In this document: piece by piece, positions 1 through 62,885 of the stretch | How the letters are laid out: the number at the start of each line of letters is the position of its first letter | How positions within the stretch are numbered: position 1 is the first letter of the stretch | NCBI GenBank assembly: GCA_011391255.1 | Contig: JAABQV010000007.1 | Location: forward strand, 1 to 64,000 | Length of the DNA stretch: 64,000 bases | Direction: 5' to 3' | Source: Dechloromonas sp. | GTDB taxonomy: Bacteria > Pseudomonadota > Gammaproteobacteria > Burkholderiales > Rhodocyclaceae | Notes under the pieces: generated by a model | Databases searched by the model: none | What the model was told of the DNA's origin: nothing | What the model saw: only the letters and a program-made list of their open reading frames with translations | Translations under genes and position numbers: made by a program

Positions 1-1043
1 CGTTTCCCAACAATGTTGATCAGGTCGGCATGCCGACCATGCAGCAAAAAACGGCCATCGGCGAGGACTTCGATGAGATCGGACAAAGGCACGCGGCCTT
101 CAACGTGCCCGCCAAAGGCTATCGTTTGGCCATCAAGCTGCTCAAGCGCGACACCGGGCAGCAGCTCCCAGGCGAGATCGGCGGTTGTCCGCCGACTCGC
201 CAGCTGGCCGCTTTCGGTCGAGCCGTAGATTTCATAAAGTGGCGCGTTGAAGCGAGCCTCGGCGTCGGCGGCCAGTTGCGCCGGGAGCGGGGCAGTGGCC
301 GAGAGCAGCAGGTCGACCGCCGGCAAATCGACGCCGGCGGCGAGCAGGGCGGCGAGGTGGAAGGGCGTCGTCACCAACAGGCGCGGCGCCGGCATGGCAT
401 TGAGCGCGGCGACGATGTCCTGCGGATAGAAGGGCTTGCCGGCCCAGAACGGGGAGTTGCCGTGCAGGGCAAGCAGCACCGTGGACTCGAACCCGTAGCT
501 GTGCTGCGCCGGCACGGTGCCGACAATATTGTGCGGTTGCTGCAATAAGCCGAGACGCTGCGCTTCGGCGCGCCCGTTGAGCACCAGCCGCCCCCAGGAT
601 TTGCCGTGTGCGACGGGACTGCCGGTCGAGCCGGAAGTGAATAGTTGAACCGCCTCGAAGTCAGCTGGAATGAGCGGGATTTTTGCCACTTTTCCGGCGT
701 TGACCGCAAGAGACGGAAAATCGAGGCGCGGCAGGTCGAGATGGTCAAAATCACTGTCGCACAAACAGACAACGTCCGGACAGGCGGTTTTGATCTGCCG
801 CAGCGTTTCGGCGGCTTGTGATGAAGGCTGCAGGCTGACCTTGCCGCTAACCAAGCCGGCCGCCAAGCCTACCGTAAAGCGATAGCGATCCTGACAAACA
901 TTGAGCAGATGCCTGCCGGACGGAAAAATTGCCACCAAAGCCTCAACATCGGCGAGAAAATCCCGCACCCGCAAAGCGCCACTCGCCCGGTAGGCGAAAA
1001 TATCGTCGAGACTGGCGTGGCCGATTAGCGGGATCTGGCTCAT
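1..1043 (-). CDS. AMP-dependent acyl/aryl ligase, aryl polyene type (3' end outside window)
   Basis: This gene runs off the left edge, so about 347 N-terminal residues are visible and the ORF track misses it. I translated it from the ATG at 1043. It belongs to the ANL adenylating superfamily: the phosphate-binding loop reads FTSGSTGSPVAHGKSW and a later motif reads YGSTESGQLASR, matching the A3 and A5 motifs. The A3 lysine position is a histidine here. The usual C-terminal catalytic lysine would lie outside the window. Its start overlaps the COG4648 gene by four bases (ATGA), so it is the fifth gene of a coupled operon of ACP, ketosynthase, ACP and COG4648 protein. In aryl polyene clusters the equivalent ligase is thought to activate an aryl acid starter and load it on a carrier protein. 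That role is inferred from context; the exact substrate cannot be read from the sequence. Confidence 0.85.
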   Translation of the reverse strand, partial: MSQIPLIGHASLDDIFAYRASGALRVRDFLADVEALVAIFPSGRHLLNVCQDRYRFTVGLAAGLVSGKVSLQPSSQAAETLRQIKTACPDVVCLCDSDFDHLDLPRLDFPSLAVNAGKVAKIPLIPADFEAVQLFTSGSTGSPVAHGKSWGRLVLNGRAEAQRLGLLQQPHNIVGTVPAQHSYGFESTVLLALHGNSPFWAGKPFYPQDIVAALNAMPAPRLLVTTPFHLAALLAAGVDLPAVDLLLSATAPLPAQLAADAEARFNAPLYEIYGSTESGQLASRRTTADLAWELLPGVALEQLDGQTIAFGGHVEGRVPLSDLIEVLADGRFLLHGRHADLINIVGK

Positions 1044-1702
1044 GGCTGTTCAGGGGGGCGGCGCGTCGATAGCCGGTAGCCACGGATGGTGTCGGCGATG
1101 CTCGATTGATCCTCCGGCGCCAGCACCCGCAGGCGAACAAGATGTTCGCCGATAAACATCAGGACAATCAGCAGCAGGCTGAGCAAATTTGCAAAGGCCG
1201 ACCAGGCAGCGGCCGGCGCAAAAAAGAACAAAAATGCAGAAACGCTGGCCATGCCGAGAAAAAACAGTGTCCAGGCGATGGTGACACTGCGCGTATAGCG
1301 TTCTTTGGCCGGCGAAATTTCGCCGGCGTGCGCGAGAAGCGCGAAGTGCGTAACCAGAGGCTGACGCCCGGCCAGCAGAGTGCGGCCAAAGAAGATGCCA
1401 AGTGCCAGATTGGTACCGAGGTGTTGAATGAAGTAGAGCAGCGCGACGTTCTGGCGCAGCTCAGGCCATAAATAGGCTAGCAGCGCCAGCACGCTCAAGC
1501 CGCCGAGCACCATCCAGAGCGGATTGACTACCCGCCAGAGGAGGAGAATGACGATGGCGACGAGGGGAGACACCGCCAGTGCCGCAGCAAAATCGGAGTT
1601 GCCGTCACCGGAGCTGCCGTAATGAGCCAGGGCGGCCCAGGCGAGGATCAGCACCCCGATAGCGAGTCCGCGCAGGATGGCGGTCGGGGTTATGCCGGTC
1701 AT
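1040..1702 (-). CDS. COG4648-family membrane protein of aryl polyene cluster
   Basis: A 220-residue polytopic membrane protein with about six hydrophobic segments (for example near residues 10-25, 42-60, 64-80, 88-105, 143-160 and 167-185). The sequence and its place between an ACP and an AMP ligase match the COG4648 family, a signature component of aryl polyene and xanthomonadin gene clusters (ApeG-like). No catalytic motif is evident and the biochemical role of the family is not established; anchoring or presenting the biosynthetic machinery at the inner membrane is speculation. It overlaps the upstream ACP and the downstream ligase by four bases each, which indicates translational coupling. 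Confidence 0.75.
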   Translation of the reverse strand: MTGITPTAILRGLAIGVLILAWAALAHYGSSGDGNSDFAAALAVSPLVAIVILLLWRVVNPLWMVLGGLSVLALLAYLWPELRQNVALLYFIQHLGTNLALGIFFGRTLLAGRQPLVTHFALLAHAGEISPAKERYTRSVTIAWTLFFLGMASVSAFLFFFAPAAAWSAFANLLSLLLIVLMFIGEHLVRLRVLAPEDQSSIADTIRGYRLSTRRPPEQP

Positions 1703-1983
1703 TTGGTTCGCTGAGTGGCGATATGGGCAGTCAGGTTGCGCAGTGAGGTGAAAATACGGGTGTTGTCCTCGTTGTCAGAGCGCAGCTGGAAGCCATAGCG
1801 CTTGGAAATCACCAGCGCCAGTTCCAGTACATCAATCGAGTCGAGCCCCAGCCCTTCACCGAAAAGCGGCGCATCCGGCTCGATCTCGCTTGCTGCCATC
1901 TCGAGATTCAAGGCGGAAACGATCAATTCGGCGACATCGGGCAACAGCGCGTCGACAACTTCCGGGGTGATGGCTTCAGACAT
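1699..1983 (-). CDS. Acyl carrier protein (second ACP of the operon)
   Basis: A 94-residue acyl carrier protein. The phosphopantetheine attachment motif GLDSIDVLEL places the modified serine at residue 49, and acidic residues follow as in other ACPs. The N-terminal extension before the motif is longer than in the housekeeping ACP. It lies 18 bases after the ketosynthase gene and overlaps the next gene by four bases. Aryl polyene clusters typically carry two distinct ACPs next to each other or close by, and this one resembles the ApeF position next to the COG4648 protein. It would carry the growing polyene chain or the aryl starter; which of the two cannot be decided here. Confidence 0.88.
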   Translation of the reverse strand: MSEAITPEVVDALLPDVAELIVSALNLEMAASEIEPDAPLFGEGLGLDSIDVLELALVISKRYGFQLRSDNEDNTRIFTSLRNLTAHIATQRTK

Positions 1984-2001
1984 GAGGGGTTTTCCGTGAA
2001 T

Positions 2002-3252
2002 TTAATGAGCCAGCGCACGGAACGCGAGAACCGCGTTGCTGCCGCCGAAAGCAAAGGAATTGGATAGTGCCGCCCGCAAGGGCTGGTCGCGTCGTGCGCT
2101 GGTGACATGATCGACACCGACGCAAGCCGGCTCGATCTCGTGCAGATGAGCAGTTGGTGGAATCGCTTGCTGGTGCAAGGCGAGCACCGTGATGATCGCC
2201 TCGATCGCCCCGGCAGCACCCAATTGATGACCGTGCATCGACTTGGTCGCACTGACCGGCAAACAACTGGCACGTTCGCCAAAGACGCCGATCAGGGCAG
2301 CGACCTCGACCGGATCACCCTCAGCCGTTGCCGTCCCATGGGCGTTTATATAGTCAATTTCTTCGACCGGCAAACCACCATCGCTCAGCGCTGCATTCAG
2401 TGCGCGAATCTGGCCGGCGGCTTCCGGGCGCACCAGATGGCTGTGGTCGCAACTGGTGCCGTAACCGACTATTTCAGCGTAAATCCTGGCGCCACGGGCG
2501 ACCGCACGATCCCAATCCTCAAGCACCAGCGCCGCACCACCTTCGCCGAGGACGAGGCCGGCTCGATCGGCACTGAACGGGCGGCAGGCTTGCGGCGACG
2601 TCGTTTCATTACCGCTTGCCATCACCCTCAGGGCTTCCCAGGCACGCGCCACGCCGTAGGCCTGCGGTGCATCGGAGCCACCGGTCAACATCACCGGCGC
2701 CTCACCACTGCGCACCCGGCGGAAGGCTTCGCCGATGGCGATCGCCGACGATGCACAGGCCACCGTGTGGCTCATACTGACGCCGCCGAGGCCAAGTTGT
2801 ATCGAAATATGCGCATTCGCCGCGTTGTTCATGCCGAGAATAACGGAGAGCGGCGAGACCCGCTCACGACCCTTCTGCCATAGCTCCTTGTAGCCCTTCT
2901 CGTAAGCCAGCGTACCGCCAAGCGCCGTACCCCAGGCGACGCCCCAATTTTCGCGGTCTTCTGCCGGTTGACCGCGCGTGAGTCCGGCATCAGCCCAGGC
3001 CTCGAAGGCCGCTGCTGTTCCCAGCTGGGCGAAGCGATCCATCGTGCTGGCAAGCGGACGACCCAGCGTGGCATCGACATCGAAACCAGGACAACTGACA
3101 AAGGGGATGCTCAGTGGGCGGGGAATGTCATCGGTACGCAAAAAACGGACAGCCGATTCACCAGCCAGCAAACGCGCGAAAAAATCCTGAAGATCACCAC
3201 CAAAAGGGCTGATCAGCCCCAGTCCGGTAATTGCCACCCGCCGCTGGCTCAT
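2002..3252 (-). CDS. Beta-ketoacyl-ACP synthase, FabF/KAS II type
   Basis: A 416-residue condensing enzyme with a complete Cys-His-His active site: nucleophile Cys166 in TVACASSA, His305 in INAHGTATAEGD, and His342 in KSMHGHQLGAAGA with Lys337 ahead of it. It is therefore expected to catalyse decarboxylative condensation and is not a chain-length-factor-like inactive partner. Length and motifs match FabF-like ketosynthases. It sits between two acyl carrier protein genes, only three bases after the first, so it is probably dedicated to this pathway and not to housekeeping fatty acid synthesis. Aryl polyene pathways use such enzymes iteratively to extend the chain; that assignment rests on context. 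Confidence 0.9.
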   Translation of the reverse strand: MSQRRVAITGLGLISPFGGDLQDFFARLLAGESAVRFLRTDDIPRPLSIPFVSCPGFDVDATLGRPLASTMDRFAQLGTAAAFEAWADAGLTRGQPAEDRENWGVAWGTALGGTLAYEKGYKELWQKGRERVSPLSVILGMNNAANAHISIQLGLGGVSMSHTVACASSAIAIGEAFRRVRSGEAPVMLTGGSDAPQAYGVARAWEALRVMASGNETTSPQACRPFSADRAGLVLGEGGAALVLEDWDRAVARGARIYAEIVGYGTSCDHSHLVRPEAAGQIRALNAALSDGGLPVEEIDYINAHGTATAEGDPVEVAALIGVFGERASCLPVSATKSMHGHQLGAAGAIEAIITVLALHQQAIPPTAHLHEIEPACVGVDHVTSARRDQPLRAALSNSFAFGGSNAVLAFRALAH

Positions 3253-3255
3253 GGC

Positions 3256-3492
3256 TCAGTTTTGTTCGCTGCGCAATTGATCCATCAAGGCCACCATCTC
3301 GCCAACGGTTTTGGGGCTTTTCAGGTCTTTGGAGAGCGAGATGCCGAAGCGATCTTCGAACTCGAACATTAATTCGAGCATCATCAGCGAATCGACGCCC
3401 AGGCTTGCCAGTTGCGCATCAGCGACAACCCGCTCCAGCGCAACGCCGAGGCGATCCTTGAGAAATTCGCGTATCAGTTCCAGGGATTCCAT
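3256..3492 (-). CDS. Acyl carrier protein (first gene of the aryl polyene-type operon)
   Basis: A 78-residue acyl carrier protein of normal length. The attachment motif GVDSLMMLEL gives Ser35 as the phosphopantetheinylated residue. It is the first gene of the leftward operon, 53 bases downstream of the dsbD stop, which reads in the same direction. No terminator is evident in that gap, so read-through from the permease-cutA-dsbD genes is possible. The pairing ACP-ketosynthase-ACP-COG4648-AMP ligase is characteristic of aryl polyene loci. Confidence 0.88.
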   Translation of the reverse strand: MESLELIREFLKDRLGVALERVVADAQLASLGVDSLMMLELMFEFEDRFGISLSKDLKSPKTVGEMVALMDQLRSEQN

Positions 3493-3545: not shown

Positions 3546-5312
3546 TCAGGGCACCTGATTCAGGGTTTTTAGAAATGCGGTCGCATCAACAAAACCAACG
3601 ACGCGGATCGACTTTATTTCCTTTCCGGATTTATCGAAAAACAGGATTCCGGGCGGGCCAAAAAGGCCAAAACGCGCCAATAAAGCCTTGTGATCGGCAT
3701 TATTATCTGTCACATCGGCTTTCAACAGCTTGAAACCAGCCAGTTTCGCCTGAACCGCCGGGTCAGAAAAGGTAAAGCGCTCCATTTCCTTGCACGAAAC
3801 GCACCAATCGGCGTAAAAATCGAGCATGACTGGCTGACCGGCCGCCATCACTTTGCTTTCAAGATCAGCCAGCGAAACCACCGGCTCAAACGGCAATTTT
3901 TTGCTCTCCGCCGCCATCGCCTGTCCGCGCAATCCGCTCAATGGTTGCAATGGATCGCGACCGCCGGCGAGGGCTCCAATCAGCAAGGCGGCGCCGGTCA
4001 GCAGCATGAAAATTCCAATACCTTTCCAGAAGCGCTGCCAGCCCTTGGCGTGCGGCGGTAGCGGGTCGAGGGCGTGGAGATAAATCGCCGGGATAATCAA
4101 CAAGGCGGCCCACGCCAACATTTGGGCAAAGGCCGGAATTACCGGTGAAACCAGCCAGACTGCGGTTGCCAGCAGCAGCACACCAAAAAATTTCTTGACC
4201 GCCTCCATCCACGCCCCGGCACGCGGCAAGAGCGTTCCGGCCGACAAGCCAACGATCAGCAGCGGCACGCCCATGCCGAGCGCCATGACGAAGAGCGCCG
4301 TGCCGCCAAGGACAGCATTGCCGGTCTGCCCGATGTAGAGCAGCGCACCGGCCAGCGGCGCGGCAACGCAGGGGCCGACGATCAGCGCCGACAGCGCACC
4401 CATGACGAAGACGCCGATGCCGCGCCCGCCCTGCAAATGGCCGGATTCTTCAGATAATTTGCTTTGCAGCGAGGTCGGCAACTGCAATTCGTAGAAGCCG
4501 AACATCGAGAACGACAACACGACAAAGACCAGCGCAAAGCCGCCTAGCACCCACGGGTTTTGCAGCGCCACAGAGAGCAGGGTGCCGGTCATCCCGGCGG
4601 CAACACCGGCGGCGGCGTAGGTTACTGCCATGCCGAGAACGTAGATCAAGGACAGCGCAAAGCCACGCCCGCGCGAAATTTTGTGGCCCTGACCGGCAAT
4701 AATGCCGGAGAGGATAGGAATCATCGGGAAGACGCAGGGCGTCAGCGAGAGGCCGAGACCGGCGAGGAAAAAGAAGCCGAGGATCGCCCAGAAGCCGGCG
4801 TCTTTCAGCAGGCCGGCAATTTTGCCGCTCTCATCGCCGTCGACCGCAACAGCCTCCCCGGCTGCCACCAAACCTGCCACCGCCGGCGTTGTTGCCGGAT
4901 CGGGCAATTCAACATTGAGCACCTGAGTCTGCGGCGGGTAGCAAACACCTGCATCGGCACAGCCTTGCGAACTCGCCTCAAGCTTGATCTGCAGGGTGCC
5001 GGAGGCATTGCGCTCAACCGGCACGCGAATCGCCACACTCTTGTAGAAAACCTCGACCTTGCCGAAAGTCTCGTCATCCTTTTCCTTGCCCTTGGGGATT
5101 TGCGCAGCGCCGAGACTCACCGCCGCACCCGGCGCGGCAAACCGGAATTTGTCGCGGTAGAGGTAATAACCCTTGGCGATCTCATAAGTGACTTCGATGG
5201 TTTGTCCGTCGAGCGCGCGCGCTGTGGGCTTGAAGGCCACCGCCGGGTCGAGGAATTCCTGAGCATGCACCAGCGAGATCAGAAAGCTGAAGAGGAAAAT
5301 AAGGATTTTCAT
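3546..5312 (-). CDS. dsbD: Thiol:disulfide interchange protein DsbD
   Basis: A 588-residue inner-membrane electron conduit that moves reducing power from cytoplasmic thioredoxin to periplasmic partners. Three regions are visible: a signal peptide (cleavage likely after LISLVHA), an N-terminal periplasmic domain with the redox pair in QGCADAGVCYPP, a membrane domain with Cys-containing segments SLTPCVFPM and VGPCVAAPLAGAL, and a C-terminal thioredoxin-like domain with DWCVSCK (cysteines 504 and 507). All six expected cysteines are present, so it should be functional. Its start codon overlaps the cutA stop by one base (TAATG), the usual cutA-dsbD arrangement in proteobacteria. Confidence 0.95.
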   Translation of the reverse strand: MKILIFLFSFLISLVHAQEFLDPAVAFKPTARALDGQTIEVTYEIAKGYYLYRDKFRFAAPGAAVSLGAAQIPKGKEKDDETFGKVEVFYKSVAIRVPVERNASGTLQIKLEASSQGCADAGVCYPPQTQVLNVELPDPATTPAVAGLVAAGEAVAVDGDESGKIAGLLKDAGFWAILGFFFLAGLGLSLTPCVFPMIPILSGIIAGQGHKISRGRGFALSLIYVLGMAVTYAAAGVAAGMTGTLLSVALQNPWVLGGFALVFVVLSFSMFGFYELQLPTSLQSKLSEESGHLQGGRGIGVFVMGALSALIVGPCVAAPLAGALLYIGQTGNAVLGGTALFVMALGMGVPLLIVGLSAGTLLPRAGAWMEAVKKFFGVLLLATAVWLVSPVIPAFAQMLAWAALLIIPAIYLHALDPLPPHAKGWQRFWKGIGIFMLLTGAALLIGALAGGRDPLQPLSGLRGQAMAAESKKLPFEPVVSLADLESKVMAAGQPVMLDFYADWCVSCKEMERFTFSDPAVQAKLAGFKLLKADVTDNNADHKALLARFGLFGPPGILFFDKSGKEIKSIRVVGFVDATAFLKTLNQVP

Positions 5313-5632
5313 TATGGATTGACCGTTTCTGTAGCCAGCCAGTTCAAATAGGCCGGCAAGCCTTGCGTGATTGGCAAGGCGATGATTTCAGGGGTGTCGT
5401 GCGGATGGCGCGCGCGGATCAGGGTTTCGAGCGCCGGATAGTTTGTTGCGGTCGACTTGATAAACAGGGGGATTTCCGTTGCCGACTCAATGACGCCTTG
5501 CCAGCGGTAAAGCGACTGGACGCGCGGCAGAATATTGACGCACGCAGCGAGTCCGGCCTCAACGACAGCCAGCGCAATCGCGTTGGCGCTTTCTTCGTCG
5601 GGGCAATTGGTGAGTATCAGCAGGGCTTCCAT
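5312..5632 (-). CDS. cutA: Divalent cation tolerance protein CutA
   Basis: A 106-residue small trimeric protein of the CutA1 family, recognised from its N-terminal ILTNCPDEESANAIA segment, the core ACVNILPRVQSLYRWQG and the later FIKSTATNYPALETLI. CutA proteins bind divalent metals such as copper and their physiological role remains uncertain. It lies between the ABC-2 permease and dsbD on the minus strand, with nine bases before it and a one-base overlap after it, so the three genes probably share a transcript. Confidence 0.93.
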   Translation of the reverse strand: MEALLILTNCPDEESANAIALAVVEAGLAACVNILPRVQSLYRWQGVIESATEIPLFIKSTATNYPALETLIRARHPHDTPEIIALPITQGLPAYLNWLATETVNP

Positions 5633-5641
5633 CAGCGAATT

Positions 5642-6412
5642 CTACTTGAGCAGGCGGCGCTGCGTCAGGCGCAGGGCAATGGCAAAGGCAATGCCGGCGG
5701 TCACCAGCAAAACCGCAATATGGAGCAGGGGATCTGCCGGCACGTTGCCAGCCAGCAGCGGCCGGATCAGCGCGACGCCTTGCGCCAGGGGCAGAATAGA
5801 ACCAATCGCGGCGAGCCAGCCGGGCAATTGATCGGTCGGGAAAAAGACGCCGGAAATCAGCGTCATCGGCGTGATGAACAGCGTGAAGTAATACATGAAG
5901 AAATCGTAGGACGGTGCCAGCGCATTCCAGATCAGGCCGAGCGCGGCAAAGGCCAGCCCGGTGAGGACGATGGCCGGTAGCGCCCAAAGCACCAACGGGC
6001 CGTTCGTCAGCCCCATGGCAGTAATGACAATCAATATGGCGGCGCCGGAAAATAGCGATTTGGTCGCCGCCCAGAACAACTCGCCGGCGACAACATCGCT
6101 GAGACCGAGCGGGGTGTTGAGGATGGCATCCCAGGTCTTCTGCACATGCATCCGGGAAAATGAGGAATACAACGCCTCAAAGGTGGCGGCATTCATCGTC
6201 GAGGCGCAAACGGTGCCGGCGGCGAGAAAGGCGACGTAAGGCTGGCCTTCTATCGTCGGCAACATTGCGCCCAGCCCGTAACCGAGGCCGAGCATGTAAA
6301 TCAGCGGATCAGCGAGATTGCCGAGGATAGACGGCAGGGCGAGTTTGCGCCAGACGAGAAAATTGCGGCGCCATACCGGCAGCCAGCCAAGCGAAAAAAG
6401 CGAGGACACCAT
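5642..6412 (-). CDS. ABC-2 type transporter permease (no ATPase partner nearby)
   Basis: A 256-residue membrane protein with about six transmembrane helices and the ABC-2 permease signature region (segments such as LGLGYGLGAMLPTIEG and PMTLISGVFFPTDQLPGWLA), closest in style to NodJ/YadH exporters. Such permeases work with a separate ATP-binding protein. None is encoded upstream, where a divergent rhodanese gene lies about 117 bases away, nor downstream, where cutA follows. The ATPase must be elsewhere or lost. The substrate is unknown; NodJ-like permeases export polysaccharides, lipids or other small molecules. Confidence 0.82.
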   Translation of the reverse strand: MVSSLFSLGWLPVWRRNFLVWRKLALPSILGNLADPLIYMLGLGYGLGAMLPTIEGQPYVAFLAAGTVCASTMNAATFEALYSSFSRMHVQKTWDAILNTPLGLSDVVAGELFWAATKSLFSGAAILIVITAMGLTNGPLVLWALPAIVLTGLAFAALGLIWNALAPSYDFFMYYFTLFITPMTLISGVFFPTDQLPGWLAAIGSILPLAQGVALIRPLLAGNVPADPLLHIAVLLVTAGIAFAIALRLTQRRLLK

Positions 6413-6529
6413 GTTGCCGCAAGCGCCTTGAATCAGGGAAAGGAGACTGATTGTAACGCGCCGCCCGGGATCAAGCCTTGCGCTATGATTAAGGTTTTAC
6501 GCACTTTGCCATTCGAGGAGTTTTACCCC

Positions 6530-48101: not shown

Positions 48102-49472
48102 CTATCCCTTTAATACTTGCAACAAAACATGAAGATCATGGTTCAACTCGTTTTCCTTGATGCGCAAGGAATCTATGGTTTTAACGGCATGAATGACGGT
48201 AGTGTGATCACGTCCACCAAAAGCATCACCAATTTCAGGAAAGCTATGGGTAGTTACTTCACGACACAACCACATGGCGACTTGCCTTGGTCTGGCAATT
48301 GCCCGTGTTCTCTTCTTTGAGAAAAATTCAGCAACTTTGATTTTGTAATAGTCGGCGACAGTCTTTTGAATATTATCCATACCGACATTTCGTGACGACC
48401 CGATCAAATCCTTGAGCGCCTCCTTGGCCAGGTCGAGAGCGATCACGCGACCGTGAAAAGACGAGTAGGCAAGTACCTTCTTCAACGCCCCTTCAAGCTC
48501 GCGAACATTTGAACGCAAGTGTTTGGCAATGAAAAAAGACACCTCATCGTCGAGATGCATGCCCTCGGCTTCGGCCTTCTTCTTGAGAATGGCGACGCGC
48601 ATTTCGAGCTCAGGCGGCTCGATTTGGACAGTAAGACCCCAGTCGAAGCGGGTTACCAGTCGATCATCAAGACCGTTGATATCCTTCGGGTAGGTGTCAC
48701 AGGTAATGATTATTTGCTTGCGGGCTTCAATCAGAGCGTTGAAAAGGAAGAAAAATTCCTCTTGTGAGCGATTCTTGCCATTGAAAAATTGAACATCGTC
48801 GAGCAAAAGTACATCCAGCGAGCGATAAGTCCGCTTGAAGGTGTCGAATGATTTTTGCTGGTAGGCACGTACAACATCCGAGTAATAGTCTTCGGCGTGA
48901 ACATAGCGAACAATTTTTTGGGGGTTTTCGGCAAGGATGGTGTTGCCGATAGCGTGAATCAGGTGTGTTTTGCCGAGCCCGGCGCCACCGTAAATAAACA
49001 GCGGGTTGTAGGCAGCCCCGGGGTTATTGGCAACCTGAACCGAGGCAGCGCGCGCTAAATCGTTAGCTTTACCGACAATTAGATTGTCAAACGTAAAGGA
49101 CGGGAATAGGCGCGATTTTTCGTAAGGGTTCGCTTTTTGCGTGGTTCTTGGATCACTGGTTGCTGTAGCGGCGGTGGTGCTCGTTTTGGACTGCACGGCT
49201 TCACGAGCGCCAGCTGCAAGCGGTTTGTTCTGGCCAATAATCAGTGCAACGCTAATTGGTGCGGCAAAAAAAGCCTGGGCGTATTCTTCGATTCGGGTCA
49301 GGTAGCGGTCGCGTACCCATTTAAGGATGAAACTGTTCGGGGCAATCAGACGTAAGCCATCCTGTGGCGCAGTTTCACCTTCGAGCCGCAATGGCTTGAT
49401 CCAGGTATTGAACTGTTGCGCAGGCAACTCCTGCTCAAAACGCAGCAGACAGGATTCCCAGAAACCAGCCAT
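48102..49472 (-). CDS. dnaA: Chromosomal replication initiator DnaA
   Basis: A 456-residue initiator. The ATG at 49472 (MAGFWESCLLRFEQELP) is preferred to the TTG three codons earlier. Domain I is followed by a Ser/Thr/Ala-rich linker, then the AAA+ domain with FIYGGAGLGKTHLIHAIGN and LLLDDVQFF, and domain IV ending with the box-binding GRDHTTVIHAVKTI. It is transcribed leftward from the rpmH spacer, with a DnaA box over its candidate promoter, suggesting autorepression. Confidence 0.98.
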   Translation of the reverse strand: MAGFWESCLLRFEQELPAQQFNTWIKPLRLEGETAPQDGLRLIAPNSFILKWVRDRYLTRIEEYAQAFFAAPISVALIIGQNKPLAAGAREAVQSKTSTTAATATSDPRTTQKANPYEKSRLFPSFTFDNLIVGKANDLARAASVQVANNPGAAYNPLFIYGGAGLGKTHLIHAIGNTILAENPQKIVRYVHAEDYYSDVVRAYQQKSFDTFKRTYRSLDVLLLDDVQFFNGKNRSQEEFFFLFNALIEARKQIIITCDTYPKDINGLDDRLVTRFDWGLTVQIEPPELEMRVAILKKKAEAEGMHLDDEVSFFIAKHLRSNVRELEGALKKVLAYSSFHGRVIALDLAKEALKDLIGSSRNVGMDNIQKTVADYYKIKVAEFFSKKRTRAIARPRQVAMWLCREVTTHSFPEIGDAFGGRDHTTVIHAVKTIDSLRIKENELNHDLHVLLQVLKG

Positions 49473-54160: not shown

Positions 54161-54946
54161 ATGATCTACGACCTGATCGATCCAGCACTTTTTGCGCTAA
54201 TACTTGCCGCCTTTGTTGCCGGTGCGATTGACGCCGTCGTCGGCGGTGGTGGTTTGATCCAGATCCCGGCGTTATTCACTGTTTATCCGGGGCAATCGGC
54301 AGCGACGCTGTTCGGCACCAACAAATGCGCAAGCGTCGTCGGAACGATCAGTGCCAGTTGGCGCTATGCCAGCCAGGTGCAGATGCCATGGCGCACCATA
54401 CTGCCCGCTGCGTTAGCAGCCTTTGTGCTCTCTTACCTTGGGGCGGCAGCCGTTGCCTGGCTGCCGAAAAATGCAATCCGGCCGATGATTCTGCTGCTGC
54501 TCATACTTGTTGCGGTCTACACCTTAAAACGCAAGAATTTTGGCTTGGAGCACCGGCCTGCCCATATGGGAAATCGCGAGTTGGTTTACGCGCTGCTGCT
54601 GGGTGGGGTAATCGGCTTTTACGACGGCTTTTTCGGCCCCGGTACCGGCAGCTTCCTGATTTTTCTTTTTGTTCGCTTTTTTGGCTTTGATTTTTTGCAT
54701 GCTTCGGCCAGCGCCAAGGTCGTCAATGTCGCGACCAATCTTGCCGCGCTCGCCTATTTTGTGCCGAACGGCTATGTTTTGCCGGTGCTCGCGCTATTCA
54801 TGGCACTCGCCAACGTCAGCGGATCGCTGGCTGGCTCATGGCTGGCAATCAAGCATGGCAGCGGATTCATTCGTCAGGTTTTCCTGATCATTGCCGGAGC
54901 TTTGATCGTCAAATTTGCGTGGGATACTTTTCAGATTTTCCACTAA
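54161..54946 (+). CDS. TauE/SafE family membrane exporter
   Basis: A 261-residue protein with about eight transmembrane helices of the TauE/SafE family, in which members export sulfite, sulfoacetate or other anions. Supporting segments: AGAIDAVVGGGGLIQIPAL and GFYDGFFGPGTGSFLIFLFVRFFGFDF, the two family repeats. It lies 30 bases upstream of the radical SAM gene on the same strand and could belong to that operon, but its substrate is not apparent. Confidence 0.85.
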   Translation: MIYDLIDPALFALILAAFVAGAIDAVVGGGGLIQIPALFTVYPGQSAATLFGTNKCASVVGTISASWRYASQVQMPWRTILPAALAAFVLSYLGAAAVAWLPKNAIRPMILLLLILVAVYTLKRKNFGLEHRPAHMGNRELVYALLLGGVIGFYDGFFGPGTGSFLIFLFVRFFGFDFLHASASAKVVNVATNLAALAYFVPNGYVLPVLALFMALANVSGSLAGSWLAIKHGSGFIRQVFLIIAGALIVKFAWDTFQIFH

Positions 54947-54976: not shown

Positions 54977-56608
54977 ATGCGCATTACGCTGGTTCACCCG
55001 GCCGGTTTCAATTTTGTTCCCGGCCAACCGGATTTTTCTGTGCTCGCCAATCGCATGCCGCCGATTGGCATCATGCAACTGGCGTCGTGGCTGGAAAAGT
55101 TCGGCCACAGCGTTGCTTTACATGACTGTCTCGGCCCTTATGCGCCGCCGACAATTGCTGAAAACGCCGAGATCGTGCTCGCTACTGATCCGGAAATGGT
55201 CGGTTTCTCGGCAACCACCTCCGGGTTTATGGATGCTTTTGAGCTCGCTGCCTATATTCGCGCGCGCCGGCCGGAGATCAAGATTGTCTTTGGCAACGTC
55301 CACGTTTCCTCGCTAGGCGCGCCGATCCTCGAACAATTCCCGGAAATCGATCTGCTGGTGATCGGCGAAGGCGAGGGCGCCATGCTTGAACTTGCCAATG
55401 GCAAACCGCTCAAGGAAATCGGCAACCTGGTCTACCGCGATGAAGCTGGCAAGATCCACATCAATCCGCGCCGCGATCGCATTCTCGATCTCGACGAACT
55501 GCCTTTTCCGGCCTACGAAAAACTCGCCGGTTTCCCGCACGCTTACCACCTGCCGCTTTTCGCCTATGAAAAGCGCTACGGTGCGACGATGATTACCTCG
55601 CGCGGCTGCCCCTACACCTGCTCCTTCTGCGATCGCACGGTGTTCGAGCGTCTCTACAAGACCAACTCGGCGCAATACACCTACGACCACATGAAGTACC
55701 TGCGCGACAAGTTCGGCGTCTATCACATCAACATGTACGACGACTTGTTCACCGCCAAGAAGCAGCGCGTCTTTGACTTGTGCGAGTTGCTGATCAAGGA
55801 ACCGCTCGGCATTCAGTGGAATTGCGCGATCCGCACCGGCCAGACGTCCGATGAAATGTTGGCCAAGCTCAAGGCGGCCGGGGTGCTGATGGTTTCGATG
55901 GGTGTCGAGTCGGCTGATCCGGCGATGATGGAACGCCACAAGGCTGGCGTCACGCTGGAAGCAGTGCGCGAGACAGTGCGCCAGATTCACGCCGCCGGGA
56001 TGCGCGCCAAGGGTTTGTTCATCTTCGGCATGCCCGGCGAAACACCGGAAACGGTCAAAACGAGCAGCGATTTCATTCTCTCGCTCGAACTCGACGAGAT
56101 GAACATGACCAAGTTCAGCCCGCTGCACGGCGCGCCGATCTGGGAGGAATGCGCCAGCGGGGTTGGCGGCGAGATGATCGAAGACTGGCGGCTGATGAAT
56201 TGCCTGAATTTCGTTTATCTGCCTGAAGGCTTTTCCTCGCGCGAGGAAATGGACGCGCTTTACAACTGGCACGTCAAACGCTTTTACGACAGCAAGGGCT
56301 ATCGCCGGCGTTTTGCCAAACGCCTGTGGGCGCACCGCTGGAGCTTGTGGCATGTGCTCAAGCATTTGCCGGAAACCATCGCCGCCGCGCGTTATTTCAG
56401 CGCCAACAAGGCGCAACTTGAGAAGGCCAAGCGCGAATTCAAACTGCATCCGCGCCAGCCGGTTGGTCTCAAACCTTATCTCAGCCCGGATCTGCAGGTG
56501 GATAATGTGGTTGCCATGTCACCGGTCAAACTGACGCGGCGTGAGGCGATTAAGGTGGTTGAGGCAAAAAGCTGCAGCACCTCGCCGGATTTGCAGCCGG
56601 CGCTATAA
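54977..56608 (+). CDS. B12-binding domain radical SAM enzyme
   Basis: A 543-residue enzyme with an N-terminal cobalamin-binding-like domain (VHPAGFNFVPGQ...PPIGIMQLASWLEKFGHSVALHD) and a radical SAM domain whose [4Fe-4S] cluster is held by CPYTCSFC near residue 213. The core continues to VSMGVESADPAMMERHKAGVT and KGLFIFGMPGETPETV. The arrangement matches BchE-like enzymes, some of which methylate or cyclise unreactive carbons. It lies 25 bases upstream of the lipoprotein and opens the coupled operon with chorismatase and acyl/glycosyltransferases, so modification of an aryl or acyl product is plausible. The reaction cannot be read from sequence. Confidence 0.88.
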   Translation: MRITLVHPAGFNFVPGQPDFSVLANRMPPIGIMQLASWLEKFGHSVALHDCLGPYAPPTIAENAEIVLATDPEMVGFSATTSGFMDAFELAAYIRARRPEIKIVFGNVHVSSLGAPILEQFPEIDLLVIGEGEGAMLELANGKPLKEIGNLVYRDEAGKIHINPRRDRILDLDELPFPAYEKLAGFPHAYHLPLFAYEKRYGATMITSRGCPYTCSFCDRTVFERLYKTNSAQYTYDHMKYLRDKFGVYHINMYDDLFTAKKQRVFDLCELLIKEPLGIQWNCAIRTGQTSDEMLAKLKAAGVLMVSMGVESADPAMMERHKAGVTLEAVRETVRQIHAAGMRAKGLFIFGMPGETPETVKTSSDFILSLELDEMNMTKFSPLHGAPIWEECASGVGGEMIEDWRLMNCLNFVYLPEGFSSREEMDALYNWHVKRFYDSKGYRRRFAKRLWAHRWSLWHVLKHLPETIAAARYFSANKAQLEKAKREFKLHPRQPVGLKPYLSPDLQVDNVVAMSPVKLTRREAIKVVEAKSCSTSPDLQPAL

Positions 56609-56633
56609 TTCCATGCTCACGTCAGGGATAAGT

Positions 56634-57359
56634 ATGAGAAACATGCGAATTTTTGGCCCTTTTGGGCTGTTGACCGCAACACTTCTGGTTTTGACGCTCA
56701 ATGCTTGTGGTAGCGGCAATGCGGCGATCAAGGCCGCCGAGGAAAAGGAAGCGGCGACGCTGGCTGCGACCGGTGGCCGCGTTTCTTCGGCGCAGGGGCT
56801 ACGCCTTGGATACGCCTGTTGCAATCTGCGTTACGTCGGTGACTGGATCAGCGACATGGGCTCCGGCGAGTTGCCGTTTATCCCGCTGGGTACGCAGGTT
56901 ATGGTGCGAGAGCTTGAGACTAATCGCGCCAATATCGAGGTGGATGGAAAGCCGTACCGCCTCGGACATGATTACGGCCGGGCGCAAGAAAAGACGGCGG
57001 AGTGGGTCGATAAGCTGATTGTTCTCGATAATCCGGCGGCCGCATTGGCCAAATATCCGGCGAGTATGCGCAGCACTATCGAAGCCGGCAAAATGGCAAA
57101 GGGGATGACCAAAGAGCAACTCATCATGGCCATGGGTTATCCCGCAACCAGCGATACCCCCAAGCTGGAGGCCGCAACCTGGAAATATTACTGGGAGCGT
57201 TACCCGATCATTGTGCATTGGAGCGGTGGGCGCGTCAGCAAGATCGAGGGCAATCCGGCTATCGTCGCCAAGGCGCAGATGGCGTCGGTGGCAACAGCCA
57301 ATGTGAAATCGAGCACGACAGGAGGCAAGGGTGGAAAATCAGGCACAAGCAATAAATAA
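56634..57359 (+). CDS. Lipoprotein with SmpA/OmlA (BamE-like) C-terminal domain
   Basis: The ATG at 56634 has AGGG upstream and gives 241 residues; the track start is inside the radical SAM tail. A signal peptide ends in a lipobox with Cys25 (LTLNAC). A first domain of unknown type has a Cys pair (GYACCNLRYVGDWISDMGSGELPFIPLGTQVMV). A second, from about residue 165, has the SmpA/OmlA pattern (MTKEQLIMAMGYPATSDTPKLEAATWKYY). A Gly/Lys/Ser-rich tail overlaps the next gene by 29 bases. It is probably at the outer membrane with the MipA-like protein. Confidence 0.78.
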   Translation: MRNMRIFGPFGLLTATLLVLTLNACGSGNAAIKAAEEKEAATLAATGGRVSSAQGLRLGYACCNLRYVGDWISDMGSGELPFIPLGTQVMVRELETNRANIEVDGKPYRLGHDYGRAQEKTAEWVDKLIVLDNPAAALAKYPASMRSTIEAGKMAKGMTKEQLIMAMGYPATSDTPKLEAATWKYYWERYPIIVHWSGGRVSKIEGNPAIVAKAQMASVATANVKSSTTGGKGGKSGTSNK

Positions 57360-58668
57360 GGCGAGCTGTGACGTTCTGGTCATTGGTGGTGGCCCGGCCG
57401 GAACGACGGTCGCCCCCTTGCTGGCCGAAATGGGTCACAAGGTGGTGCTGCTGGAAAAGGCGCACCATCCGCGTTTTCACGTTGGCGAATCACTATTGCC
57501 AGCCAATTTGCCGCTCTTCGAGCGCCTAGGCGTGGCGGCTGAGGTCAAGGCCATCGGGATGGAAAAATGGGGTGCCGAATTTGTTTCGCCACACCATGAA
57601 ATGTCGCAGACCTTCCAGTTCGGTGAAGCCTGGAATAAATCCATGCCGCACGCTTATCAGGTCAAGCGCGCTGATTTCGATACCATTTTGATCCGCAATG
57701 CTGCCAAAAAGGGTGTTGAAGTTCACGAGGGTTGCAAGGCCAAGGCAGTCGAGTTTTTGCCCGAAAACGCCGGCGCTGTAATACGCGCTGAAAACGACGA
57801 TGGCAGCCAGACCGAATGGACGGCGCGTTTTGTCGTTGATGCTTCCGGGCGCGATACCTTCCTCGCCAACCGCTTCCAGATCAAGCACCGCAATCCGAAG
57901 CACAACAGCTCGGCGATTTACGGGCATTTCTCGGGTGCCAGGCGGCACGAAGGGCAGGCCGAGGGCAACATCACCATTTTCTGGTTCGAGCATGGCTGGT
58001 TCTGGTTTATCCCGATGATGGACGGTATCACCAGCATTGGCATGGTGACCTGGCCGTATTTCATGAAGACCAGGGGCGAACGCAGCATTGAGCAGTTCAT
58101 GCGTGACGGCATGGCGATGTGTCCGAAACTCACCGAGCGGATGAGCGATGCGGTGCTGGTCAATGAAATCGAGGCGACCGGTAACTTCTCCTACGTTTCC
58201 GAGCGCAATCACGGTGCCAATTACATGCTGCTCGGTGATGCCTACGCCTTTATCGACCCGGTGTTTTCATCCGGGGTGATGTTGGCAATGAATAGCGGCG
58301 TGATTGCCGCCGAGGCGATTGATACCTGCCTGAAAAGGCCGGCCGAGGCGCCGGCGGCGCTCAAGCGTTTCGATGCCCTGATGAAGCACGGACCGAAGGA
58401 ATTTTCCTGGTTCATCTATCGCGTGACCAACCCGATCATGCGCAATTTCTTCATGAACCCGAAGAATATTTTCCGCGTCAAGGAAGGCTTACTGTCGATG
58501 CTGGCCGGCGATATTTTCGGCAAAACACCGATCTGGCGCTCGATTCTGATGTTCAAGACACTCTATTACCTGGCCAATATTTTTCAGCCCCGGCGCGCTT
58601 ACAAGGGTTGGAAACAGCGCCAATTCAACATCCGCCGGGTCGATGACACGGCAATGAACTCAATTTAG
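57331..58668 (+). CDS. FAD-dependent halogenase-like oxidoreductase
   Basis: A 445-residue flavoprotein starting at GTG with GGAGG seven bases upstream, inside the end of the lipoprotein gene. The FAD fold is IGGGPAGTTVAPLLAEMGHKVVLLEKAHHPRFHVGESLLP, and GWFWFIP matches the WxWxIP motif of flavin-dependent halogenases. The GxGxxG site and GDAYAFIDPVFSSGV are typical of that family. Halogenation is not certain: many close relatives act as hydroxylases or dehydrogenases. Related genes occur in xanthomonadin and aryl polyene clusters. The stop overlaps the chorismatase start by one base. Confidence 0.85.
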   Translation: MENQAQAINKASCDVLVIGGGPAGTTVAPLLAEMGHKVVLLEKAHHPRFHVGESLLPANLPLFERLGVAAEVKAIGMEKWGAEFVSPHHEMSQTFQFGEAWNKSMPHAYQVKRADFDTILIRNAAKKGVEVHEGCKAKAVEFLPENAGAVIRAENDDGSQTEWTARFVVDASGRDTFLANRFQIKHRNPKHNSSAIYGHFSGARRHEGQAEGNITIFWFEHGWFWFIPMMDGITSIGMVTWPYFMKTRGERSIEQFMRDGMAMCPKLTERMSDAVLVNEIEATGNFSYVSERNHGANYMLLGDAYAFIDPVFSSGVMLAMNSGVIAAEAIDTCLKRPAEAPAALKRFDALMKHGPKEFSWFIYRVTNPIMRNFFMNPKNIFRVKEGLLSMLAGDIFGKTPIWRSILMFKTLYYLANIFQPRRAYKGWKQRQFNIRRVDDTAMNSI

Positions 58669-59684
58669 TGAATCTGACCTTATTAACCGCTGAAAAAATC
58701 GATCTGCAGCACCTTTTGGCCGGTGCGGCAGGCTGCGTGCTGGGTGCCAGCCGGATTGGTTTGCCGCTCGCCGATAGCGAAGCCGGCTGGCCGGTACAGT
58801 CGATCTCGGCGCCGCTGTTGGGCAAGAGCGATAGTTGCCTGCAGGAGATCTGGCGTCTTGATGCGCTTTGTCAGTCCGGCACTTTCGAGGAAATCAATTA
58901 CCGTCGCGCCGGCCCGCTGTTATTTGGTGTCATCGAGCTCGACGAGGCGGGCTTTGGCGATGCCGCCGTGCCGCTGCAGGCGGCGACCGAAGCGGCGTAC
59001 CGGCAGATTTTTCGCTTGCTCGACCGCGAAGGCGTGCCGCATTTGTGGCGCACCTGGAACTATCTCGCCGGGATCAATCGTGAGAGCCACGGTCTGGAGC
59101 GTTACCGCCAATTCAATATTGGCCGTCAGGAGGCTTTCATTGCCTGTCAGCGCATGGCAACCGGCAATGTGCCGGCGGCTTGTGCCATCGGCCTGGCCGG
59201 CGGGCCGCTCAGCATTGCCTTCATGGCCGGTGCGCAGGCTGCGGTAGCGGTTGAGAATCCACGCCAGATCAGCGCCTACAACTATCCGGCGGCATACGGC
59301 CCGCGCAGCCCGACCTTTTCACGGGCGGCGCTGGTTTATCTGCCGGGCCAGGAAATTTTCTTCATTTCCGGTACGGCCAGCATCGTTGGTCATCAGACCG
59401 TCTGCCCTGGCGATGCCGCAGGCCAGGCGCGTGAAAGTCTGGCCAATGTGGCGGCGGTGCTGGAAGCCGCCAATAAACTGAGCCGTGGTTCAGCCTATCA
59501 TCTGGAAAAGCTTTCCTATCGTGTCTATATCCGCCATGCAGCCGACTATCCGGCGATCCGCGAAGTACTGCTCGCGCGTCTCGGCGCTGCCGCCGATGTA
59601 GTTTATCTTCAGGCCGATATTTGCCGGGCGGATTTGCTGGTCGAAATTGAAGCCATGGCTTCACAGCCTTTAGGGAGTTGTTGA
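58668..59684 (+). CDS. Chorismatase, XanB2/FkbO/Hyg5 type
   Basis: A 338-residue enzyme of the chorismatase family with a GTG start that overlaps the previous stop by one base. Diagnostic segments: PLLFGVIEL, LWRTWNYLAGIN, LERYRQFNIGRQEAF, ENPRQISAYNYPAAYGPRSP and FFISGTASIVGHQTV, with the C-terminal DICRADLLVEIE that carries the conserved catalytic Glu. Members convert chorismate to 3-hydroxybenzoate (and, in XanB2, also 4-hydroxybenzoate) plus pyruvate, or to dihydroxycyclohexadiene acids. In Xanthomonas, XanB2 supplies the starter of the aryl polyene xanthomonadin. This is the key gene linking the operon to an aryl starter. Confidence 0.88.
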   Translation: MNLTLLTAEKIDLQHLLAGAAGCVLGASRIGLPLADSEAGWPVQSISAPLLGKSDSCLQEIWRLDALCQSGTFEEINYRRAGPLLFGVIELDEAGFGDAAVPLQAATEAAYRQIFRLLDREGVPHLWRTWNYLAGINRESHGLERYRQFNIGRQEAFIACQRMATGNVPAACAIGLAGGPLSIAFMAGAQAAVAVENPRQISAYNYPAAYGPRSPTFSRAALVYLPGQEIFFISGTASIVGHQTVCPGDAAGQARESLANVAAVLEAANKLSRGSAYHLEKLSYRVYIRHAADYPAIREVLLARLGAAADVVYLQADICRADLLVEIEAMASQPLGSC

Positions 59685-60520
59685 TGTTTCGAATATTCAA
59701 ATCCTGTTTAATTGGCGCGCTGGCACTGGTTGCCGGCCTGTCGCAGGCGGATCAGGAAAAGCCCTTATGGGAAGTCGGTATCGGCGTCGCAGCGCTGAGT
59801 TTTCCGGCCTACCGTGGTTCCGATCAGACCACCAACTTCGCTGTGCCGGTGCCATTGTTCAGCTATCACGGCGATTTCTTCAAGGCTGACCGGCACGGGA
59901 TTCGCGGCAGTCTTTTCGACTCCGACCGGCTCGATCTGACCCTCAGTCTGGCCATTTCCCCGCCGGCCAGCAGCGACGACGTCAAGGCGCGCAAGGGCAT
60001 GTACGATCTTGAGGGCACTTTTGAATTCGGCCCGCAGATGGATGTCACCTTCTGGCGCTCCGAGAACCGCGCGCGCTTTTTCAAGCTGCTGATGCCGCTG
60101 CGCGCGGCCTTCACCGTCGATGGGCCGCCCAAGGACATTGGCTGGGTTTTTCATCCCAAGTTGAATGTCGATATTACCGACTTGCCCGGCCTGCCCGGCT
60201 GGAACCTTGGCCTGCTCGCCGGCCCGGTGTTCGGCAACGAGCGCCAGAATTCCTACTATTACAGCGTCGCGCCGCAGTACGTGACAGTGGATCGTCCGGC
60301 TTATCAGGCGAGCAGTGGTTACGCCGGGATGCAATACACCATGGGTTTCTCCAAGCGCTTCCCGAAATTCTGGGTCGGCACTTTCCTGCGTTACGACAAC
60401 CTCTCCGGTGCCGTCTTTGAAGACAGCCCGCTGGTCAAGCAGAAGGATTATTTCGCCGGCGGCGTTGCTGTTACCTGGGTGCTTGGCGAATCTTCGACCC
60501 GCGTGATGGTGAATGACTGA
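59684..60520 (+). CDS. MipA/OmpV family outer-membrane protein
   Basis: A 278-residue beta-barrel protein. The ATG at 59684 is chosen because AGGGAG precedes it, and it opens a signal peptide ending around GLSQADQ. The family feature FPAYRGSDQTTNFAVPVPLFSY is clear, with repeated amphipathic strands and an aromatic-rich C-terminus (AGGVAVTWVLGE). Most MipA family members are of unknown function or act as scaffolds for peptidoglycan enzymes. Its position inside the biosynthetic operon suggests it helps to place or export the product at the outer membrane. Confidence 0.85.
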   Translation: MFRIFKSCLIGALALVAGLSQADQEKPLWEVGIGVAALSFPAYRGSDQTTNFAVPVPLFSYHGDFFKADRHGIRGSLFDSDRLDLTLSLAISPPASSDDVKARKGMYDLEGTFEFGPQMDVTFWRSENRARFFKLLMPLRAAFTVDGPPKDIGWVFHPKLNVDITDLPGLPGWNLGLLAGPVFGNERQNSYYYSVAPQYVTVDRPAYQASSGYAGMQYTMGFSKRFPKFWVGTFLRYDNLSGAVFEDSPLVKQKDYFAGGVAVTWVLGESSTRVMVND

Positions 60521-61319
60521 TCTGCAGCGCCCGGGCGGAGTACTCCGGGCTGCTTACGAAACCTTCGCGATGGTTTTCGGCCTTGGCCTGCTGGCATTAA
60601 TTTGCCTGCTCTGGTTGCCCTTCGCGCTGGTTTTCTATCCGTTGCTGCCGCGCCGCTGGGGACAGCCGGTCGGCCGTTACTTCATCGCCTACGGCTTTCG
60701 TTTTTACCTGCGCTGCCTGGAGATTTTTTGCGCCTGTAAGTTCGATCTCAAGGCGCTGGATCAATTACGCAACCAAGGGCCGTTGATTCTTGCCGCCAAT
60801 CACCCGTCGCTGCTCGATGCCGGGTTGATTACGTCGCGTCTGCCGAATGCCGTCTGTGTGATGAAGGCTACGCTCATGGATAACCTGCTGTTTGGCGCAG
60901 CGGCGAGGCTGGCGCGCTACATTCGCAACAATGCGCCCCTCGAAGCCATCCTCGGTGCGCGTGAAGAATTACGCAGTGGTGCGCACCTGGTGATTTTCCC
61001 CGAGGGTACGCGCACTGATCAGTTCCCGTTGATTGCCCTCCAGAAGAGTACCGCCTTGATTGCCAATCGTTCGGGCGTTGCGGTGCAAACCTTGCTGATT
61101 GAGTTCAGCACGCCATATCTCGGCAAGCACTGGCCCTTGTTCCAGCGTCCGAGCCTGCCTTTGCAGTTCTCGATTCGTCTTGGCCGGCGCTTTGAGGCGC
61201 CGAAGGATGTCAGCGCCTTTACCGAAGAACTGGAAGCCTATTTCCGCGAACAATTAGGGGCAAAAATGCCGTTGACCGTAACCAGCGGGGATATCCCGCT
61301 GGCCGGCAGCGTCCGATGA
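60513..61319 (+). CDS. Lysophospholipid-type acyltransferase (PlsC family)
   Basis: A 268-residue membrane acyltransferase that starts inside the end of the previous gene. One or two N-terminal hydrophobic helices precede the catalytic block NHPSLLDAG (HX4D) and FPEGTR, the two signature motifs of the PlsC/LPLAT family. In aryl polyene loci such acyltransferases are linked to attachment of the polyene to a glycerol or lipid backbone. The following glycosyltransferase overlaps it by four bases. Confidence 0.88.
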   Translation: MTDLQRPGGVLRAAYETFAMVFGLGLLALICLLWLPFALVFYPLLPRRWGQPVGRYFIAYGFRFYLRCLEIFCACKFDLKALDQLRNQGPLILAANHPSLLDAGLITSRLPNAVCVMKATLMDNLLFGAAARLARYIRNNAPLEAILGAREELRSGAHLVIFPEGTRTDQFPLIALQKSTALIANRSGVAVQTLLIEFSTPYLGKHWPLFQRPSLPLQFSIRLGRRFEAPKDVSAFTEELEAYFREQLGAKMPLTVTSGDIPLAGSVR

Positions 61320-62092
61320 CCGCCATGCCGGACGCCTCTAGCAGCCACCTCGTTCTGATTCCCAGCTACAATCCCGGCGCCAAAGTTGGTGAAACCGTGC
61401 GCGCTGCCCGCGCGCAGTGGACGCCGGTATGGGTGGTGGTCGACGGCAGCAACGATGGCAGCAGCGAGTTGTTGCGGGCAATGGCGGCGAACGATCCGGG
61501 TTTGCGGGTGATCGTCATTCCGGAAAACCGTGGCAAGGGTTCGGCTGTGCTCGCCGGCATCTCGCAAGCGGCTGCCGAGGGCTTCAGTCATGCGCTAACT
61601 ATGGATTCCGACGGCCAGCACCCGGCCGATTTAATCCCCGCTTTCATGGCCGCCTCGCAGGCCAAGCCGGCGGCGATGGTGCTCGGTAAACCGGTTTTTG
61701 ATGCCGATGCGCCCGCCTTGCGCGTCAATGGCCGCAAGGTCTCGAACGGCTGGGCCAATCTCGAAACGTTGTGGATGGGTATCGGTGATTCGCTCTACGG
61801 CTTTCGCGTCTATCCGATCCGGCCGCTGATCAAAATTATGCAGGCCAACCGTTTTATGCGGCGCTTTGATTTCGACCCGGAGGCGGTGGTTCGCCTCTGC
61901 TGGGCGGGCGTCAAACCGGTCAATCTTGATGCCCCGGTGCGCTACTTCCGAGCTGACGAGGGCGGTGTTTCACATTTTCGTTACCTGCGCGATAACACTT
62001 TGCTGACCTGGATGCACACCCGCCTGTTTTTGGGCTTCTTAATGCGTTTACCGGTGCTGATCTGGCGCCGTCTGAGTGATTCCTCTTCCTAA
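61316..62092 (+). CDS. Family 2 glycosyltransferase
   Basis: A 258-residue GT2 protein with overlap ATGA to the acyltransferase. The nucleotide-sugar fold shows VLIPSYNPGAKVGETV, a DGS box (VVDGSNDGS), and the metal-binding DSDGQHPADL. A later segment carries GDSLYGFRVYP. It is likely cytoplasmic with a C-terminal hydrophobic stretch (RLFLGFLMRLPVLIWRRL). Aryl polyene clusters often hold a glycosyltransferase beside an acyltransferase, either separate or fused; here they are separate but translationally coupled. Confidence 0.9.
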   Translation: MTAMPDASSSHLVLIPSYNPGAKVGETVRAARAQWTPVWVVVDGSNDGSSELLRAMAANDPGLRVIVIPENRGKGSAVLAGISQAAAEGFSHALTMDSDGQHPADLIPAFMAASQAKPAAMVLGKPVFDADAPALRVNGRKVSNGWANLETLWMGIGDSLYGFRVYPIRPLIKIMQANRFMRRFDFDPEAVVRLCWAGVKPVNLDAPVRYFRADEGGVSHFRYLRDNTLLTWMHTRLFLGFLMRLPVLIWRRLSDSSS

Positions 62093-62093
62093 T

Positions 62094-62852: not shown

Positions 62853-62874
62853 AAAAATCGCCGGCTTTTCGCGG

Positions 62875-62884: not shown

Positions 62885-62885
62885 C

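Follow-up and report, generated by a model that had tools for sequence, protein, structure and literature searches.

Two operons flanking dnaA

The stretch of Dechloromonas DNA analysed here (the window; positions 1-64,000 of the 149,075-bp contig C58 in G000, a 60-contig draft genome of 3.29 Mb) begins at a contig end and carries dnaA between two operons, A and B, whose genes resemble those of aryl polyene and xanthomonadin-type pathways. Genes in this GC-rich DNA were predicted with a codon-usage caller. Operon A runs leftwards on the minus strand from position 3492 off the contig end, and the five genes that the original prediction had read there are all present. It opens with acyl carrier protein 1 (ACP1; 3256-3492; PF00550, motif GVDSLM), followed by a FabF-like ketosynthase (KS; 2002-3252; PF00109/PF02801) in which Cys166, HGT 305 and HGH 340 are intact, an arcV-like ACP2 (1699-1983; NF006617, 135.7 bits against a cut-off of 70) with the phosphopantetheine serine motif GLDSID, a COG4648-type, arcU-like membrane protein of 220 aa (1040-1702) and an arcT/xanA2-like AMP ligase (1-1043; PF00501). 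The membrane protein gave no match in Pfam and NCBIfam searches, and its position is conserved in every relative examined; its gene overlaps those of ACP2 and the ligase by 4 bp each, as had been noted. The ligase is read for 347 aa, with about 100 C-terminal residues cut off by the contig end (the orthologue in G016 has 447 aa).

Operon B runs rightwards on the plus strand (54977-62852). The chorismatase, acyltransferase, glycosyltransferase and methyltransferase genes predicted for it are found, together with genes for a radical S-adenosylmethionine (SAM) enzyme, a halogenase-like protein and MipA that had gone unmentioned. The first gene encodes a B12-binding radical SAM enzyme of the HpnJ/BchE-like type (54977-56608; PF02310 and PF04055, CxxxCxxC at 211), which opens the chorismatase operon in the majority of the genomes compared; it was not found in G021 and is absent from the published Azoarcus arc loci. 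It is followed by a lipoprotein-like protein of no family but conserved position (56643-57359) and by an arcA homologue (57331-58668; PF04820), a flavin-dependent halogenase-like protein with a WFWFIP (WxWxIP) motif at 223, the closest PDB relatives of which are halogenases. The arcB/xanB2-like gene (58668-59684) encodes a chorismatase of the FkbO/Hyg5/XanB2 type (PF21168; TIGR04444 at 240 bits, below the cut-off of 325) in which the catalytic glutamate is present; of the three Hyg5-type marker residues (PMC7170507; Hyg5 numbering), Gly240 and Cys327 are kept and Gly173 is replaced by alanine, although the product of such a chorismatase cannot be predicted from its sequence (PMC3949708). The operon continues with a MipA outer-membrane protein (arcC; 59684-60520; PF06629), a glycerophospholipid-type acyltransferase (arcD; 60513-61319; PF01553) and a family 2 glycosyltransferase (arcE; 61316-62092; PF00535), and closes with a UbiE-like methyltransferase (62094-62852; PF01209), after which an antiporter gene comes next in G021 and G024.

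The remainder of operon A was located on a second contig, C8, whose right end holds the single close homologue in G000 of the MMPL exporter from the G016 cluster. Read leftwards, the last 12 kb of C8 encode an ApeI-like dehydratase (truncated where the contig stops), LPLAT, LolA, MMPL, an alpha/beta hydrolase, a polysaccharide deacetylase, a methyltransferase, an isoprenylcysteine-methyltransferase-like protein, a MerR-methyltransferase protein, a KS, a chain length factor (CLF), an ApeP-like dehydratase and FabG, arranged as the genes after the ligase are in relatives. The dehydratase, ketoreductase, MMPL exporter and LolA genes expected to the left of the window are thus all accounted for. 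In G017, the closest genome (86% identity in the ligase, 91% in DnaA), the ends of the sequence from ligase to dehydratase match C58:11-71 and C8:54025-54146 and so bridge the two contig ends, which would be neighbours separated by about 250-350 bp.

The completed operon has the makeup of an aryl polyene/xanthomonadin-type set. The KS at C8:44309-45502 contains ACSSS, HGT and GHTLGA and the CLF at C8:43509-44312 none of these, giving the characteristic pair of an active KS and a CLF devoid of catalytic residues. Two ACPs, an AMP ligase, a ketoreductase and dehydratases are all present, the dehydratases having no Pfam match and being assigned by position and orthology, and a LolA-like protein stands beside the MMPL exporter and an acyltransferase (PF19574, PF03176, PF03279). 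Inside the operon, at C8:45762-47036, a MerR-type regulator is fused to a methyltransferase domain, where relatives have another gene or none. No chorismatase, ammonia lyase or glycosyltransferase was found in the completed operon A, in line with the original prediction, and the acyltransferase it does possess is of the LPLAT type. The whole genome contains one chorismatase, that of operon B, and no PF00221 lyase.

Ancestral cluster and inversions at the origin

The dnaA gene (48102-49472, minus strand, followed by rpmH-rnpA-yidC-mnmE) lies between the operons, as had been stated. The GC-skew minimum at 48582 and a perfect DnaA box (TTATCCACA) at 49611 place the origin in the dnaA region and hence between A and B, both of which now point away from it. 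Among the genomes of the same genus, the 22 that carry both operons on one contig have A and B convergent in a single cluster, with 12-23 kb between ligase and chorismatase in 20 genomes and 18.5 kb between the MMPL gene and chorismatase in two, and the chorismatase gene usually lies 7-12 kb from dnaA. The only exceptions are G000 (58 kb, divergent) and G024 (171 kb, divergent), and a common origin of these two splits was rejected, since G024 has different flanks and its dnaA lies at a distance of 1.3 Mb, making that split independent. Unsplit clusters such as those of G016, G031, G036 and Dechloromonas sp. SSB2 (G020) lie beside dnaA, contain orthologues that are mostly 60-90% identical, and have the same internal order; in them A and B are adjacent and convergent and the antiporter follows B without a break, whereas in G000 the split falls before the antiporter. 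The cluster of D. aromatica RCB has been cited previously (PMC3949708).

G031 and G036, both complete genomes, have the block order recA, X, Y, Z, glutamate synthase (gltB), where X begins with a pseudouridine synthase and ends with a radical SAM gene, Y comprises an ABC permease, cutA, dsbD, operon A and the antiporter, and Z comprises operon B, tauE, mnmE, yidC, dnaA, dnaN, gyrB ... priA ... murB. G000 has recA, -Y, -Z, X, ..., glutamate synthase instead, and its outer flanks on either side have kept their ancestral orientation. A breadth-first search gave two inversions as the shortest path, (X Y Z) to (-Y -X Z) to (-Y -Z X); a single inversion centred on oriC was rejected because it cannot attain the observed orientations. 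Two inversions, one of which included the origin, moved A across dnaA, and B stayed where it was in the ancestor, some 9 kb from dnaA. Upstream of A, the dsbD, cutA and ABC-2 permease genes (3546-6412, minus strand) moved with it as part of block Y and stand in the same order beside A in G016, G021, G031 and G036, and the TauE-like exporter gene (54161-54946, plus strand), which in the ancestral order lay between mnmE and operon B, is conserved in G016, G017, G021, G031 and G036.

Two of the new junctions lie within the window. At 6413-6484 block Y meets block Z (rhodanese, murB ... gyrB, dnaN, dnaA), an adjacency that is new relative to G031, G036 and G016. At 62853-62885 operon B meets the pseudouridine synthase of block X in place of the antiporter that follows B in unsplit relatives, and this junction recurs in an independent assembly (G017:C198), so that the rearrangement predates the divergence of G000 and G017 and is not an assembly error. 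The break between Y and Z fell inside the ancestral operon B, just before arcG, and the antiporter gene is therefore now beside A, at C8:38220-39419. The original prediction is refined in that this last gene of ancestral operon B travelled with A.

The two gene sets also occur together. Across 61 relatives, all 30 genomes with the chorismatase carry an A-type ligase, and a further four possess the ligase but not the chorismatase (Fisher p = 2e-13, uncorrected for relatedness), which is the co-occurrence that the original prediction had proposed to look for; both sets are absent together in, for example, G011, G013, G019 and G032. Among 300 genomes at the order level, the chorismatase occurs in 41, and 38 of these also encode a close MMPL exporter (p = 7e-30, likewise uncorrected). 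Apart from G000, 37 genomes have both genes, and in 33 of them the two lie within 19 kb on one contig, the remainder being G188, where they are 281 kb apart, and three with the genes on different contigs. Gene content, gene order, co-occurrence and the minimum number of inversions are in this sense established.

Pathway assignment and alternative readings

Operons A and B very probably encode one arcuflavin/xanthomonadin-like aryl polyene pathway, which formed a single convergent cluster beside dnaA until two inversions separated it. The prediction of one pathway split around oriC is upheld in this respect, but A, read there as one half of it, is the complete chain-building core and not symmetrical with B. 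By analogy with characterized pathways, the chorismatase of B would convert chorismate to 3-hydroxybenzoate, and the AMP ligase of A would load this onto an ACP of A. The polyene would then be built by the KS-CLF pair, the extra KS, the ketoreductase and the dehydratases, all from A, while methyltransferases and acyl- and glycosyltransferases from both operons would modify and attach it, and transport to the envelope would involve LolA and the MMPL protein of A and MipA of B. The partner in esterification would be a dialkylresorcinol supplied by a dar locus on contig C4. This locus is complete (C4:13657-21261), lies between pyrG and a thioredoxin-like gene, and has the gene order seen in Azoarcus; its family scores exceed the cut-offs for the StlD/DarB subfamily (611 bits), DarG (174) and DarH (466), and that for the stricter resorcinol_DarB model (512) is below the cut-off of 550. 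A XanB2-type chorismatase, a mark of the arcuflavin/xanthomonadin subtype, and a dialkylresorcinol locus, a mark of the arcuflavin subtype, are both found in G000, whose gene annotations correspond to arcA-E, arcG-K and arcM-V. With these matches and the dar set, the product is likely to be an arcuflavin-like polyene-dialkylresorcinol ester, as predicted from the genes, and we infer that joint function of A and B would have continued after the split. Elsewhere in the genome, contig C30 has genes for a KASIII-like protein, an alpha/beta hydrolase and an AMP ligase in series, resembling an ole (long-chain olefin) operon.

The closest known counterpart is the arcuflavin system of Azoarcus sp. BH72, which has the same gene set in two unlinked arc loci, azo3910-3921 and azo0253-0264, plus a separate dar locus (PMC3949708). 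There, ArcB makes 3-hydroxybenzoate and ArcT adenylates it, and arcK or arcT mutants are colourless, so that both arc loci are needed for the pigment (PMC3949708). Azoarcus arcE-arcD-arcC-arcB-arcA correspond to genes of operon B and arcM-arcV to the first part of operon A, and an LPLAT-type acyltransferase occurs in the Azoarcus arc locus as it does in A. The partition differs, in that KS, CLF, dehydratase, ketoreductase and antiporter accompany the chorismatase in Azoarcus but the ligase in G000 (the antiporter through breakage), and operon B of G000 adds the B12 radical SAM enzyme, the lipoprotein and the UbiE-like methyltransferase. Azoarcus possesses arcA yet makes a non-brominated pigment, and the halogenase-like protein of G000 likewise carries WxWxIP. 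To judge from the locus numbering, the Azoarcus arc loci may also lie on opposite sides of the origin. The xanthomonadin cluster of Xanthomonas shares with G000 a XanB2-type chorismatase, an AMP ligase, a ketosynthase, a CLF-like protein, a dehydratase, a ketoreductase and an acyltransferase (PMC3949708), but is a single locus whose product is brominated, its pigments having no dialkylresorcinol part. The ape clusters of Xenorhabdus and Acinetobacter, in the sections of the report consulted (PMC8358021), resemble operon A in their two ACPs, KS-CLF pair (ApeO-ApeC), second KS (ApeR), ketoreductase (ApeQ) and dehydratases; they are modelled there with a 4-hydroxybenzoate starter, and those sections do not mention a chorismatase.

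The two-locus arc system (Schoner et al. 2014; PMC3949708) had already shown that such a pathway can be split. The contrast drawn with the usual single cluster thus stands within the genus, as the 22 genomes attest, but not as something new to the family. What is new is the present split, with its history of two inversions and its breakpoint within an operon; the rearrangement is an ordinary one, of yellow membrane pigment genes. A literature search on aryl polyenes with chorismatase found no matching paper.

Several points weigh against the one-pathway assignment. The co-occurrence p-values ignore phylogeny, and the order-level MMPL count, for which more than 390 bits were required, concerns a broad family. 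The join of C8 to C58 across the short gap is inferred from the G017 sequence, and the pathway of this organism is predicted from its genes. The two operons could instead serve independent pathways, A making an ordinary aryl polyene from a starter supplied elsewhere (for example 4-hydroxybenzoate from UbiC) and B a separate hydroxybenzoate-derived product. Operon A alone is indeed a near-complete chain-building set, and 20 of the 58 order-level genomes with a close MMPL exporter do not have this chorismatase, so that A-like sets can work without it. Yet A and B form one convergent cluster in the 22 genomes of the genus and are absent together, B is never found in this genus without A, and mutation of either arc locus abolishes the pigment in Azoarcus (PMC3949708), and we regard separate pathways as very unlikely. 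Still less credible is a chimeric C58, with A and B truly adjacent on the chromosome. Such an artefact might be suspected in a 60-contig draft whose contig begins within operon A, but the four separate new junctions each lie within a contig and fit one two-inversion history, the junction of B with the pseudouridine synthase has its counterpart in G017, and outer flanks in ancestral orientation would not be expected of an artefact.

The separation might also have been selected rather than neutral. Judged by their orientation relative to dnaA here and in G031/G036, both operons are now co-directional with replication, and A ancestrally faced the fork. Inversions around oriC are common, however, most relatives carry A unsplit and head-on with no apparent penalty, and G024 broke the pathway elsewhere, 1.3 Mb from dnaA, all of which makes selection an improbable cause. 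If A and B form one pathway, as we favour, an arcuflavin-like pathway has stayed complete after breakage of its cluster at least twice in the genus (G000/G017 and G024) and also in Azoarcus. Genome mining based on clusters would call two unrelated fragments here, and the finding also argues against the chorismatase operon being a separate pathway.

A dispersed uptake-signal-like repeat

A motif, GTTGACCGCAAC (reverse complement GTTGCGGTCAAC), accompanied by two A/T tracts about 12 bp apart, is dispersed in both orientations through coding and intergenic DNA. In 435 kb of G000 the 12-mer occurs 102 times with at most one mismatch (45 and 57 copies in the two orientations), 83 copies being within genes and 19 intergenic, an enrichment over the 11% of DNA that is intergenic. 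The 10-mer GTTGACCGCA is the most over-represented in this sequence (68 copies against 1.7 expected under a third-order Markov model). The A/T tracts lie at -21 to -16 and -8 to -5, and the centre of the first is nearly 100% A/T. The window contains 19 copies with at most one mismatch, against 0.42 expected, and exact 12-mers at 7445, 11063, 24095, 25413, 26419, 50039, 56669 and 62874. Over the whole genome there are 59 exact 13-mers and none in a reversed control; other genomes of the genus have 0-26, with almost none outside the genus, and relatives show dialect-like variants such as TGCGGTCGAC and TACGGTCAAC.

Read in reverse, the motif consists of a GCGG core and, after it, two A/T-rich regions, like the uptake signal sequence of Pasteurellaceae, with its inner core GCGG and two A/T-rich regions (PMC12616744), although the host is a betaproteobacterium. 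These features make the motif a candidate for a new family of uptake sequences, and a search of the available literature on uptake sequences in Rhodocyclaceae or Dechloromonas found no paper.

Copies of the motif fall within the junction gap at two of the four new junctions, at C8:38164 (gap C8:37964-38219) and at 62866-62886 of the window, and occur in 6 of 72 intergenic gaps overall. With two of four junctions and p of about 0.04, no firm claim of repeat-mediated breakage is made. In the unsplit relatives G031, G036 and G016 no copy lies in the DNA upstream of the equivalent genes. We think it unlikely that the first inversion arose by recombination between two inverted copies of this genus-specific, uptake-signal-like repeat (GGTTGACCGCAAC); if it did, repeats of natural transformation would be tied to remodelling of the origin region. 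Separately, GTTTCACGTG/CACGTGAAAC is strongly over-represented in G000 DNA and in the stretches of G031 and G036 near dnaA, as expected for parS sites.

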